Source: Arenicellales bacterium
GTDB lineage: Bacteria; Pseudomonadota; Gammaproteobacteria; Arenicellales; JAHEKD01
Assembly: GCA_028284225.1 (NCBI GenBank)
Contig: JANQSD010000001.1
Span: 1 to 64,000 of the forward strand
Direction: 5' to 3'
Length of the DNA: 64,000 nt
A program made the translations under genes and the position numbers. The notes beneath the pieces were generated by a model. It was not told the origin of the DNA and ran no database searches. It worked only from the letters and a program-made list of their open reading frames with translations. Shown here in pieces: positions 1,917 to 49,918 of this stretch (its first letter is position 1; every line of letters starts with the position of its first letter).

Positions 1917-3187
1917 TGGCTGAACCAGAAATTGTTTTGACCGCTGAAAAACTGGGCAAACGTTATGTACTTGGGGGCCTGGAGCGATTAAACGATTCAT
2001 TCCGCGAAATGTTGATTGACTTGTTATTAGCACCTTTTAGGCGATTTAAAAAGCTTAGTGGAAAAGCTGATGAGTCAGAATTATTCTGGGCACTGAAAGA
2101 CATAAATTTCAGCATTAAACGCGGAGAAGTGGTTGGTATAATAGGAAAAAATGGGGCTGGTAAAAGTACACTATTAAAAATTTTAAGTCGTATTACAACG
2201 CCAACTGAAGGGACTGTTACAATTAAAGGAAACGTTGCCAGTCTCTTAGAAGTGGGTACTGGGTTTCATCCAGAATTGACGGGTCGTGAAAACATCTATC
2301 TTAACGGTGCCATTCTTGGCATGAAGAAGAAGGAAATCTCAGAAAAATTTGATCGCATAGTTGAATTTGCAAATATTGAAAAGTTTGTAGACACACCAGT
2401 CAAACGTTATTCTAGCGGTATGTATGTGAGATTAGCTTTTTCAATTGCTGCTCACTTAGATCCGGATATTTTAATAGTTGATGAAGTGTTAGCGGTTGGC
2501 GATATACACTTTCAAAAAAAGTGCCTTGGTAAACTTGAAGATATTTCATCACAAGGACGTACGGTGATATTTGTAAGCCACAATATGGCTTCTGTATTGA
2601 ATTTATGTAACAGAGGTATTGTGGTTGATTCTGGTAAGGTAATCTATGATGCTCCTATTGCTTCGGCAGTTAAAAAATATTTGGCATTAGGGTCTAATAG
2701 TGATGGTACCGGTAGAGTGATTTTTGACAATAATCAGAAACCAGCAGATCTGGATAACATATTCAGAAAAATAACGCTTTATGATGCTAATCATCAAGTT
2801 ACCTCTAGCTTTTCAGTGGGTGATAAGATGATTGTTGAAATTGAAGTAGATATGCTGAAAAATTTTGATGATCCCCAATTTAGTTTAGGTATAGATGATG
2901 AATTAGGTGTGAGGATTTTTACATTGTCAACATATTATTCTGAATACAACAGCTCGTCAATTTCTGGCGTTTATAACGTTAGGTGCCAGCTTGATGAGTT
3001 AACTTTAGCTCCCGGGGATTATAAATTAACCGTTTGTTTCGGAAATTCAACAAATTTAGTTAAGTATGTGAAGCATAATGTAATGACGATTAGAGTTCAT
3101 GATTCAAATTATTTTAATAATGGCCGATCTTATATCAAATCTTCTGGTCCGATCTTACAAAAGTCATCTTGGACTGAAATTAGATAA
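1916..3187 (+). CDS. wzt: Polysaccharide ABC exporter, ATPase with C-terminal glycan-binding domain (Wzt type)
   Basis: Cytoplasmic ATPase partner of the preceding permease. The Walker A motif GKNGAGKST lies at residues 77-85, the signature YSSGMYVRL near 165, Walker B ILIVDE at 185-190 and the H-loop SHN at 221. Beyond residue 260 there is an extra beta-rich domain of about 160 residues, as in Wzt proteins that recognise the terminal modification of the O-chain before export; KpsT-type ATPases lack it. This suggests export of a chain whose end is capped, for example by a methyl or other group, which fits the methyltransferase genes nearby. The ATG overlaps the preceding stop codon by one base. 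Confidence 0.92.
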   Translation: MAEPEIVLTAEKLGKRYVLGGLERLNDSFREMLIDLLLAPFRRFKKLSGKADESELFWALKDINFSIKRGEVVGIIGKNGAGKSTLLKILSRITTPTEGTVTIKGNVASLLEVGTGFHPELTGRENIYLNGAILGMKKKEISEKFDRIVEFANIEKFVDTPVKRYSSGMYVRLAFSIAAHLDPDILIVDEVLAVGDIHFQKKCLGKLEDISSQGRTVIFVSHNMASVLNLCNRGIVVDSGKVIYDAPIASAVKKYLALGSNSDGTGRVIFDNNQKPADLDNIFRKITLYDANHQVTSSFSVGDKMIVEIEVDMLKNFDDPQFSLGIDDELGVRIFTLSTYYSEYNSSSISGVYNVRCQLDELTLAPGDYKLTVCFGNSTNLVKYVKHNVMTIRVHDSNYFNNGRSYIKSSGPILQKSSWTEIR

Positions 3188-10644: not shown

Positions 10645-11282
10645 AAGTCATTGGAATCGGTTTAAATAAGACGGGAACAAGCACCTTAAAAACGTGCATG
10701 AAAACTTGGGGTTACAAGCACATGACCTTTGATCTGGATGCGTTTAACGCCTATCGGGAAAAGGACTTTGATTATCTGAGGCAAATCACTGATGCGCATG
10801 ACAGTTTTGAAAACTGGCCCTGGGCATTGATGTATCAGCGCTTATATGACTGGTACCCGGATGCTAAATTCATACTGACTATACGCAAGAATCCACAGAC
10901 CTGGTTTAAAAGCTTAAGTCGACATGGTAAGAGCCTCGGGCCTTTAACTGATTATGAAATTTATATCTATGGGTATGCCAACCCCAATGAGAATAAACAA
11001 GCGCATATTGATTACTATTGTCGACATAACAGGGAAGTTGCCGAATTTTTCCAGGATAAACCCGGAAAGTTATTAACCGTGTGTTGGGAGAATGGGGATG
11101 GCTGGAATGAATTAAGTGAGTTCCTAAATCTTAAACAACCCGATGTTGATTTCCCTCATTCAAATAAGACACCGTCTATGCTGAAAAAAATGGAAACTAA
11201 ATACCGGCCGATTTTAGGCCGCTATAAGCAAAAAATTCTAGAACCTATCTCAAAATGCCTGCGCTCGTTGATACGTCGTTAA
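10641..11282 (+). CDS. Sulfotransferase family protein
   Basis: Probable PAPS-dependent sulfotransferase of 213 residues that would add sulfate to the glycan. The 5'-phosphosulfate loop is GLNKTGTSTL (residues 6-15) and the 3'-phosphate segment is FILTIRKNPQTWFKSL near 78. It resembles the Sulfotransfer_4 branch. The gene overlaps the deacetylase by four bases. The last 14 or so codons and the stop lie inside a 141-bp dispersed repeat, so the present C-terminus (basic, ending RSLIRR) was probably supplied by the insertion of that repeat. The catalytic parts are upstream and look intact, so it is probably still functional. Confidence 0.83.
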   Translation: MKVIGIGLNKTGTSTLKTCMKTWGYKHMTFDLDAFNAYREKDFDYLRQITDAHDSFENWPWALMYQRLYDWYPDAKFILTIRKNPQTWFKSLSRHGKSLGPLTDYEIYIYGYANPNENKQAHIDYYCRHNREVAEFFQDKPGKLLTVCWENGDGWNELSEFLNLKQPDVDFPHSNKTPSMLKKMETKYRPILGRYKQKILEPISKCLRSLIRR

Positions 11283-11380
11283 ACGTTCGTTCAAAATGCT
11301 CATTTACCTCAAGTAAACTGCGCTTTTTCGCTCACGTTTGCCTCGTCTGAACATCGCTCGACTATTTTGAGATGGGTTCT
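11240..11380 (+). repeat. 141-bp palindromic-ended repeat, copy 1 (MITE-like)
   Basis: The ends are near-perfect inverted repeats, AGAACCTATCTCAAAAT and its complement ATTTTGAGATGGGTTCT. The same element, also exactly 141 bp and about 90 percent identical by my hand alignment, occurs in the other orientation at 47839-47979. It has no coding capacity of its own. It overlaps the 3' end of the sulfotransferase gene and lies 11 bases before the convergent TRAP gene. Size, terminal inverted repeats and dispersal fit a non-autonomous mobile element; no clear target-site duplication is seen. Confidence 0.85.
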
Positions 11381-47154: not shown

Positions 47155-47430
47155 ATTAAGCAGCCTAGTGACTCCAGATCCTGTTAGTTTCAATCAATTC
47201 TATACGAATTTGTCGGCTCAGATTGTACTTGATTCTTTAGGTGACTTCTAGATTTATTGGGGGTTTGGAGTCGTTAATTTGTTTACTTGGATTTGTGACT
47301 CAACAACATTTGTATAGTGTTGATGTTAATTTTTACATTAACAATTTCAAACAATTATATGACAAGATTGTTAACTACTATGAACTAGACTTGACTATGC
47401 AGGTTCGATATGGTTCCATACGCATATAGT
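47155..47430. other. Intergenic region without a recognised gene
   Basis: AT-rich stretch upstream of the riboswitch. I see only short imperfect inverted repeats (for example around 47305-47345) and a TATAGT box at 47425-47430 that could be the -10 of the riboswitch promoter. No convincing coding frame on either strand. Confidence 0.5.
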
Positions 47431-47436
47431 ACGTTT

Positions 47437-47526
47437 AGCGTACCGAAAAGGCAAAGCTAGCTGAAAAGTAGCGACGCAAAGCTTCCGGTCTAAGGAGTAT
47501 TCTCTAAGATAGCGGGGTTGCCGAAT
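47437..47526 (+). ncRNA. Cyclic di-GMP-I (GEMM) riboswitch
   Basis: The sequence matches the class I c-di-GMP aptamer. GGCAAAGC precedes a hairpin with GAAA loop (47450-47472). The invariant GACGCAAAGC core is at 47473-47482, CCGGTCTAA at 47485-47493 and the closing AGCGGGGTTGCCGA at 47511-47524. It aligns with the Vibrio cholerae Vc2 aptamer throughout. No recognisable protein gene follows on this strand before the strong terminator at 47793. Confidence 0.88.
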
Positions 47527-47676
47527 CAGATAGACATGACAGTTATTCTAAGCTTCTTGTCCTCGCATTCTGCGATTCTTGCCACTAGTGATCCTTTATC
47601 CAAACTTTGCTTGTAATCACAAGATTGTTTTCGATAGCTATATTTGCCTGAGTTAATTACCTTAGAGGGTTTTGTC

Positions 47677-47754
47677 GTGTCGGGAAGGTGGATGGACAGT
47701 ACAAATGGGGTATTTGTAAATCGGGACGGGCAATTGCTAGATAAATTGCGATAG
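47677..47754 (+). CDS. Possible 25-residue peptide under the riboswitch
   Basis: GTG frame preceded at seven bases by AGAGGG, an excellent ribosome binding site. The peptide is short and charged, with no signal peptide and no family I recognise. A second, hydrophobic 26-codon frame starts at 47536 (ATGACAGTTATT) just after the riboswitch but has no good binding site. Either could be the regulated product, or the transcript could act as RNA. Weak evidence. Confidence 0.3.
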   Translation: MSGRWMDSTNGVFVNRDGQLLDKLR

Positions 47755-47792
47755 TCTCTCTCCTCCTTGGCATCAAGCCAAAGCGGCACTTC

Positions 47793-47821
47793 GGCCGGTC
47801 TCCCAGACCGGCCATTTTTTT
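47793..47821 (+). terminator. Strong intrinsic terminator downstream of the riboswitch
   Basis: Perfect 9-bp stem GGCCGGTCT / AGACCGGCC, 3-base loop, then seven T. The stem is far more GC-rich than the surroundings. It would end a riboswitch transcript of about 385 nt. Confidence 0.9.
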
Positions 47822-47838: not shown

Positions 47839-47979
47839 AGAACCTATCTCAAAATAGTCGAGCGATGTTCAGATGAGGCAAAAGTGAGCGAAAAAGCACA
47901 GTTTACTGAGCATAAATGAGCATTTTGAGCGAGCGTTTAACGACGTCTCAACCAGCGCAGGCATTTTGAGATAGGCTCT
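47839..47979 (-). repeat. 141-bp palindromic-ended repeat, copy 2 (MITE-like)
   Basis: Same length and about 90 percent identity to the reverse complement of 11240-11380. Ends AGAACCTATCTCAAAAT and ATTTTGAGATAGGCTCT. It sits between the riboswitch terminator (18 bases away) and the stop codon of the next minus-strand gene (2 bases away). Confidence 0.85.
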
Positions 47980-48406: not shown

Positions 48407-49918
48407 ATGGGACAAATTAGTTCATTTTTATTGTTGATGATGCAGATTTTTTCAGCTGTATTCATAAGTTTGATCGGTTTGTTATTACTTGCCGTAGTCA
48501 TCATGTATATTCGCGATGTAACTCAGACTTCACACGCTATCCGCCGAAATTATCCGGTGATAGGTCGCTTTAGATATTTCTTCGAGCATATGGGGGAATT
48601 TTTTCGCCAGTATTTTTTTGCATTGGATAGAGAAGAAATGCCGTTTAATCGTGCTGAAAGATCGTGGGTTTATCGAGCGGCTAAAGACCTGGATAACACC
48701 ATTGCATTTGGTTCTTCCAAAGACTTACGTCATGTTGGTACGGTTTTGTTTGTTAATTCTCCCTTCCCGACACTTAGTGAGGATATGGTGGCTCCTCAGG
48801 CCGTTACTATCGGCCCATATTGTGAGAAGCCATATACAACAAGTTCGTTGTTTAACATCTCAGGCATGAGCTACGGTGCGGTTTCCAAGCCGGCAGTGCT
48901 GGCATTGTCGAATGGTGCTAGGAAGGCGGGCGCATGGATGAATACGGGTGAGGGTGGTTTGTCTGAATATCATTTGCAAGGTGGTGCTGACATAGTATTC
49001 CAGATTGGTACAGCAAAATACGGTGTGCGTGATGAAAATGGCGAATTTGATGAAGATAAATTAAAAGCGATCGCTAATATCGAACAAGTCAAAATGTTTG
49101 AATTAAAACTTAGCCAGGGAGCTAAGCCGGGCAAGGGAGGCATTTTGCCGGCAGCCAAAGTTACCGAAGAGATTGCTCAAATCAGAGGTATTGCTGCAAA
49201 TTCAGATTCGATAAGCCCCAACCGTCATCCGGAGATTAACAGTATTGATGATTTGCTCGACATGATTGCGTATATCCGTAAAATCACGGGCAAACCGGTC
49301 GGTTACAAAGCTGTAGTCGGTGCCTACGGCTGGTTAGATGATTTGATGGATAGAATTATTCAACGGGGCATAGAGAATGCACCGGACTTTATTACCGTTG
49401 ATGGTGGTGATGGTGGTACGGGTGCGGCGCCTATGTCGTTGATGGATGACGTCGGCCTGCCATTGCGTGAAGGTCTGCCAATGCTAGTTGATCATGTGAC
49501 TGCAGCCGGATTAAAACAGCGTATTAAAATTATTGCTTCAGGAAAGTTGATTACCCCAAATCAGGTTGCTTGGGCGCTGTGTGTGGGTGCAGACTTTGTG
49601 GCCTCAGCTAGGGGTAACATGTTTGCCCTGGGCTGTATTCAAGCATTGCAATGCAATAAAAACACGTGTCCAACAGGGATTACTACGCATAACCCAAAAT
49701 TGCAACGTGGGCTGGATCCAACCGACAAGGCAGTTAGAGTGGCAAATTATATTAAAAACATTGTTTATGAAGTTGGTGTAATTTCACATTCATGTGGTGC
49801 TAAAGAACCGCGGGAATTAGCGCGTAGAAATGCTAGAATTGTGCAGGAAAGTGGACGCAGTGTGCCACTGAACGAATTATATCCGGACAAATACTCAGAA
49901 GAGCAAAGGGCAGCTTAA
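48407..49918 (+). CDS. FMN-binding glutamate synthase family protein
   Basis: A stand-alone protein of 503 residues homologous to the FMN domain of glutamate synthase large subunit. It has one N-terminal membrane segment (about 8-32). GEGGLSEYHLQGGADIVFQI, LKLSQGAKPGKGG and DGGDGGTGAAP form the FMN barrel, and CIQALQCNKNTC gives the Cx5Cx4C ligands of a 3Fe-4S cluster. The amidotransferase and beta-subunit parts are absent, so it cannot use glutamine in the classical way; the true substrate and electron donor are unknown. A good binding site (GAGGT) precedes the ATG. Confidence 0.9.
   Translation: MGQISSFLLLMMQIFSAVFISLIGLLLLAVVIMYIRDVTQTSHAIRRNYPVIGRFRYFFEHMGEFFRQYFFALDREEMPFNRAERSWVYRAAKDLDNTIAFGSSKDLRHVGTVLFVNSPFPTLSEDMVAPQAVTIGPYCEKPYTTSSLFNISGMSYGAVSKPAVLALSNGARKAGAWMNTGEGGLSEYHLQGGADIVFQIGTAKYGVRDENGEFDEDKLKAIANIEQVKMFELKLSQGAKPGKGGILPAAKVTEEIAQIRGIAANSDSISPNRHPEINSIDDLLDMIAYIRKITGKPVGYKAVVGAYGWLDDLMDRIIQRGIENAPDFITVDGGDGGTGAAPMSLMDDVGLPLREGLPMLVDHVTAAGLKQRIKIIASGKLITPNQVAWALCVGADFVASARGNMFALGCIQALQCNKNTCPTGITTHNPKLQRGLDPTDKAVRVANYIKNIVYEVGVISHSCGAKEPRELARRNARIVQESGRSVPLNELYPDKYSEEQRAA

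Follow-up and report, generated by a model that had tools for sequence, protein, structure and literature searches.

In the textbook view, c-di-GMP riboswitches act in cis on genes for motility, pili and adhesins. Free-standing c-di-GMP-I RNAs are already known, as are trans-acting RNAs derived from riboswitches for SAM and B12. The merRNA of Bdellovibrio bacteriovorus is, according to the available part of its description, 445 nt long and was proposed to be a c-di-GMP store owing to its extreme expression (PMC3627812). In Clostridioides difficile, the accessible text on RCd5 gives a GEMM-containing RNA of 398 nt (PMC3649979), and an excerpt of a 2018 paper lists five orphan class I aptamers without a downstream coding sequence, which its authors took to be either non-functional or acting other than in cis (PMC6200980). 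Among RNAs in which an aptamer for another metabolite is joined to a trans-acting part, SreA pairs with an mRNA, and the partner of Rli55 and EutX is the protein EutV (PMC8383071). Pyrimidine-rich targeting motifs have been described independently: the CCUCCUCCC motif of the alphaproteobacterial alpha-r14 / cuckoo RNAs as anti-Shine-Dalgarno (PMC10746234), and the betaproteobacterial toxic sRNA RF02278 as complementary to ribosome-binding sites (PMC5688073). In the literature searched, no c-di-GMP aptamer joined to an anti-Shine-Dalgarno-type sRNA end was found.

The locus considered here lies in a window of 64,000 nucleotides (the whole stretch of DNA that was analysed) from an Arenicellales bacterium. 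A sequence-only reading of the window had proposed a full GEMM aptamer, followed by about 270 bases with only tiny frames and a strong GC-rich terminator. The Rfam model RF01051 (gathering score 35) matched over its full length (1–87 of 87) on the forward strand with an E-value of 1.9e-13 for the window, which bears out the aptamer; the orthologue in a second genome of the same genus (G001, here the sister genome) scored 78.2 bits. The window RNA is thus a predicted c-di-GMP-I riboswitch aptamer, and the surrounding unit is made up of the following features.

47358–47375 (+): TATGACAA(g)xTTGTTAAC, a conserved element 5′ of the presumed promoter and possibly an operator; kept in the sister genome
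47391–47419 (+): presumed promoter, with −35 TTGACT (47391–47396) and a weak −10 TTCCAT (47414–47419) after TGG
47429–47443 (+): 5′ hairpin GUACGUUUAGCGUAC at the presumed 5′ end of the RNA, sharing bases with the start of the aptamer model; the sister genome retains the stem and has a different loop
47440–47525 (+): predicted c-di-GMP-I riboswitch aptamer, RF01051 at 77.2 bits; compensatory change A-U to G-C in P2 relative to the sister genome
47526–47654 (+): variable linker, 45% identical to the sister genome
47655–47697 (+): purine-rich conserved block 1 (AATTACCTTAGAGGGTTTTGTCGTGTCGGGAAGGTGGATGGAC), able to pair in part with block 2; 40/43 identical in the sister genome
47700–47718 (+): hairpin with a G-rich loop, kept in both species with a different stem sequence; z −1.4 in the window and −3.4 in the sister genome
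47753–47797 (+): conserved block 2, consisting of CUCUCUCCUCCUU (47756–47768, anti-Shine-Dalgarno type) and a small hairpin; 43/45 identical in the sister genome
47767–47781 (+): the small UUGGC-AUCAA-GCCAA hairpin within block 2
47793–47821 (+): intrinsic terminator and its U tract, closing the unit at the 3′ end and possibly serving as an Hfq-binding tail; one stem pair changed from G-C to A-U in the sister genome

All strongly conserved stretches of the RF01051 alignment are present in the window aptamer (GGCAAA, the GAAA tetraloop, GACGCAAAGC and the closing GCCG). The predicted ligand pocket retains the first G of GGC, the base by which c-di-GMP aptamers are told apart from cGAMP variants. 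No further RF01051 match was found in the 4.09-Mb genome by a fast search of a kind that may overlook weak RNA matches (when used for anti-hemB-type sRNAs, it passed over the locus described here), which makes such whole-genome negatives soft. At the other end of the unit, the terminator was confirmed as strong and G+C-rich: the stem-loop GGCCGGTCTCCCAGACCGGCC at 47793–47813, followed by ATTTTTTT, has a stem of 9 bp and a folding energy of −18.0 kcal/mol (z −6.0). The 5′ hairpin GUACGUUUAGCGUAC has a z of about −3 in both genomes. The presumed promoter was not detected by a scan for the sigma-70 consensus. Its TTGACT occurs at the equivalent place in the sister genome, and both this hexamer and TATGACAA-TTGTTAAC are retained there inside an upstream stretch that is otherwise 57% identical.

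The interval between aptamer and terminator is about 270 nt long, and its forward-strand frames are small (at most 36 amino acids) and do not start with ATG. This part of the sequence-only reading stood; the frames of 25–26 residues that it had singled out are not conserved. Instead of the same-strand gene directly downstream that marks a cis-regulator, the terminator comes first, and the next gene lies 882 nt past the aptamer and is truncated in the sister genome. That gene, the next real one on the forward strand, is glutamate-synthase-like (PF01645 Glu_synthase; 48407–49918). Between it and the unit lies a 65-codon frame that runs on the opposite strand and matches no Pfam family. Upstream of the unit are two cytochrome c genes, likewise on the opposite strand. 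A MITE-like element, about 141 bp long and bounded by AGAACCTATCTCAAAAT as terminal inverted repeats, occurs twice in the window (47839–47979 and 11240–11380), and one copy is present elsewhere in the sister contig (L045, about 2878–3018).

A search of related genomes for the aptamer with its downstream segment, as the sequence-only reading had suggested, located the unit at the same place in the sister genome (contig C475 = L045): aptamer, both blocks and terminator are present, flanked by the same cytochrome c and glutamate-synthase-like genes. Identity is 93% for the 5′ hairpin plus aptamer, 93% for block 1 and 96% for block 2, versus 45% for the linker, 43% for the loop region and 36% for the sequence after the terminator. 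Several of the differences preserve structure, namely the A-U to G-C exchange in P2 of the aptamer, the G-C to A-U exchange in the terminator stem, and the hairpin that is formed with a different stem. The islands of conservation and the structure-keeping changes are, as judged from one genome pair (the window genome and G001, one of the two being 75% complete), the pattern of a predicted functional RNA and not of a decaying leader. Block 2 is confined to these two genomes among the 109 of the order, and neither a pattern nor a covariance model derived from both copies found further relatives of the 3′ part in these 109 genomes. BLAST likewise gave none in 369 gammaproteobacterial genomes. Plasmid records gave matches to the aptamer alone, and phage and viral records gave none to any part of the unit.

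The 3′ end was compared with known sRNA families. The last ∼67 nt (47755–47821) match the anti-hemB sRNA model RF02837 with 31.2 bits (E-value of 2e-5 for the stretch searched) and the 3′ end of the sister unit does so with 28.8 bits (8e-5), both below the gathering score of 49.5. As in anti-hemB, a CUCCUCC motif and an intrinsic terminator are present at the 3′ end. The first hairpin of anti-hemB, which carries CUCCUCC in its loop, does not form in the window unit (4 of 6 pairs are broken), and membership of the family is therefore not claimed; the score below the cut-off points the same way. The predicted 3′ end of the window unit resembles the anti-hemB family without belonging to it. Weaker matches in the window were obtained to RF02278, SorY, mmgR and SorX, most of which have CU-rich or CUCC-type motifs. 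The anti-hemB family was described from Burkholderia. sRNAs of the anti-hemB type (RF02837) occur in several families of the order itself (L154–L163, in G007, G022, G028, G006 and others), four of them above the cut-off.

Compared with the described systems, the unit is like merRNA in being free-standing, of similar length, without a conserved downstream open reading frame and confined to one lineage; as in merRNA, the aptamer sits in a non-coding RNA that is conserved within its lineage (here two genomes). It differs in its sRNA-like 3′ end: the available part of the merRNA paper reports no anti-Shine-Dalgarno-type end, the comparison being one of descriptions and not of sequences (PMC3627812). 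With RCd5 and the orphan aptamers of C. difficile it shares, as far as the accessible excerpts describe them, a c-di-GMP-I aptamer RNA without a gene, and those belong to another phylum (PMC3649979, PMC6200980). SreA, Rli55 and EutX similarly join a metabolite aptamer to a trans-acting RNA, but their aptamers bind SAM or B12 and they are found in Firmicutes (PMC8383071). RF02837 and RF02278 have the same order of a CU-rich CUCCUCC motif and an intrinsic terminator. They are, in contrast, short stand-alone sRNAs whose motif belongs to the loop formed by a stable hairpin, which the window unit lacks, and no aptamer at gathering score lies near the ten best anti-hemB-type loci of the order. The alpha-r14 / cuckoo RNAs also use an anti-Shine-Dalgarno pyrimidine motif as targeting site; they differ in having several motif-bearing hairpins, in belonging to alphaproteobacteria and in having no ligand sensor (PMC10746234). 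The proposal of an undescribed regulatory unit thus needs narrowing: free-standing c-di-GMP-I RNAs are known from Bdellovibrio and C. difficile, and what the available parts of those reports do not contain is the anti-Shine-Dalgarno-type 3′ module.

We lean, with no more than modest conviction, towards a free-standing non-coding RNA in which a c-di-GMP aptamer heads a trans-acting sRNA of the anti-Shine-Dalgarno type that would act with Hfq. The locus would give one RNA of ∼395 nt (about 47427–47821), presumably as a single transcript. Its 5′ part would bind c-di-GMP, and its 3′ part would be a regulatory RNA laid out like an anti-Shine-Dalgarno sRNA, with the pyrimidine-rich CUCUCUCCUCCUU and a Rho-independent terminator at its end. 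The ligand, supplied by what is apparently a single GGDEF/EAL hybrid, would set the amount or the exposure of the active 3′ sRNA, which together with Hfq may repress mRNAs with purine-rich ribosome-binding sites in trans. Hfq is encoded in the genome. The only GGDEF match and the only EAL match found there belong to one Cache-HAMP-GGDEF-EAL protein of 845 amino acids (G000:C10:154249-155490; L167:2193-4730, reverse strand). In this protein, GGDEC stands in place of GGDEF and EIL in place of EAL. Since a single GGDEF/EAL protein was found, the aptamer may rank among the principal outputs of what would be a very small c-di-GMP network.

In principle, the RNA could be a merRNA-like sponge or store of c-di-GMP whose 3′ part is a structural body and terminator only. 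The available part of the merRNA report describes a free-standing c-di-GMP riboswitch RNA of 445 nt without a downstream open reading frame (PMC3627812), which the window unit resembles in size and layout, and buffering would be easy in a cell that apparently has a single diguanylate cyclase. A structural body, however, need not retain CUCUCUCCUCCUUGGCAUCAAGCC letter for letter (43/45) beside a drifted linker, and the presumed −10 is weak, so that we regard this explanation as unlikely, though worth taking seriously. A long transcription-attenuation leader of the glutamate-synthase-like gene, with c-di-GMP controlling read-through of the terminator at 47793–47821, is quite unlikely. The gene or its remnant is indeed next on the same strand in both genomes (about 590 nt downstream in the window and about 140 nt in the sister genome), and in Bacillus thuringiensis the c-di-GMP-I riboswitch Bc1 combines a long expression platform with two terminators (PMC11218506). 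Yet in the sister genome the gene is reduced to a frameshifted remnant of ∼56 amino acids in two frames while the unit is intact, and the unit is therefore not simply the leader of that gene. Moreover, when 80 relatives of this gene were screened with a simple pattern, none had an aptamer upstream (loci with short flanks being uninformative), the terminator is separated from the aptamer by its ∼270-nt interval with no evident anti-terminator, and in the window the MITE, with an inverted repeat of its own, separates terminator and gene. That two adjacent elements are present, an aptamer ending its own RNA and an independent sRNA with a promoter in the linker, is decidedly improbable. The linker is not conserved and contains a promoter-like pair (ATCACA / TATATT) that ends at 47644, just 5′ of block 1, but the pair is absent from the sister genome and the number of promoter-like pairs given by the scan is close to that in shuffled sequences (5 versus 3.2±2.1). 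There is also no terminator between the aptamer and block 1, and the order of the elements is the same in both genomes.

Coding and decay were weighed against the same genome pair. A riboswitch-controlled micropeptide from block 1, making the RNA dual-function or coding (MSCREGGWTVQMGYL in the window and MSYREGGWTNLTNRGIS in the sister genome), would use a TTG or ATG start, respectively, which lies at a homologous position after an AGAGG-like sequence. Only 9 residues correspond, however; the remainder diverges and covers the hairpin. Six of the first eight codons are letter-identical although identity is about 70% in the neighbouring cytochrome c DNA, and the two differences fall in the start codon and in a codon with a non-synonymous TGT/TAT exchange; the constraint is therefore on nucleotides. 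No open frame is common as such to the two units and the nucleotide conservation is too tight for coding at such divergence, which makes a peptide product, one of the options that the sequence-only reading had put forward, very improbable. Its other suggestion, that the original target was lost, has in its favour that no gene follows. This is scarcely credible given that the aptamer with its compensatory change, the 3′ blocks and the terminator are kept in the second species, the 3′ part being conserved far above its flanks, and a decayed riboswitch was rejected on these grounds. Its third option, a non-coding RNA, is supported by the conserved 3′ blocks and terminator and by the orthologous unit.

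For the trans-acting sRNA that we favour, gating could occur by sequestration of the seed by block 1, by processing to a 3′ fragment of ∼70 nt, or by premature termination in the linker. In the RNAalifold consensus, GGAAGGUGGAUGGAC pairs with GUCUCUCUCCUCCUU and UGUCGU with GCGGCA (block 1 with block 2), so that pairing of the seed with the purine-rich block 1 might be the off state. The complementarity between blocks 1 and 2, or between the aptamer and either block, was no better than that of shuffled sequences and this step is therefore a guess; a sequestration switch was not visible in the accessibility of the full RNA either. In the computed accessibility of a 3′ fragment of ∼72 nt the seed is largely accessible; processing, which would expose it, is thus an alternative. 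An excess of C over G in the linker could suggest Rho and is significant in the sister genome only. Genes with a perfect AAGGAGGA start site were sought as targets, none of which was common to both genomes, and no convincing target site was seen in the GGDEF/EAL gene or in the genes of the window. The full scheme, in which one GGDEF/EAL enzyme and one aptamer would govern one gated anti-Shine-Dalgarno sRNA, the sole RNA output, and this sRNA would act as a global post-transcriptional regulator by repressing many genes in trans, is conceivable but doubtful.

With the exception of L009 and L011, each of the 22 further aptamers detected in the order is followed within ∼300 nt by the start of a frame of 90 codons or longer (frames that were not individually confirmed as genes). 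These two represent a second orphan c-di-GMP-I unit, in family f7 (L009 in G007 and L011 in G016). It lies on the reverse strand, at about 1501–1940 (L009) and 1501–1860 (L011) of the reverse complement, in the order ubiB-like gene, aptamer, conserved block of ∼46 nt (78% identical), terminator and convergent dksA/traR-like gene. The block reads TTGTTRCGGAGWGTGACGCAACC..GGGTTGT..GGGRTACAG and no same-strand gene follows it; the L011 aptamer reaches the gathering score of RF03167. The f7 unit is unrelated in sequence to the window unit, which suggests that putative c-di-GMP-sensing non-coding units arose more than once. In family f2 (L005, L013–L015, L017 and L019–L024), many c-di-GMP-I aptamers lie ahead of frames for large proteins that resemble one another in sequence and are apparently exported, and c-di-GMP therefore probably controls surface or secreted proteins there.

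Overall, c-di-GMP in the window organism probably controls other genes through RNA rather than protein. If this is true, one second messenger would reach many mRNAs via a single RNA, and a cis-switch would have been turned into a global post-transcriptional regulator. The c-di-GMP aptamers that so far stand as unexplained orphans in Bdellovibrio and C. difficile would thereby be given a testable function, for which the near-minimal c-di-GMP apparatus of this genome would offer a clean test system.
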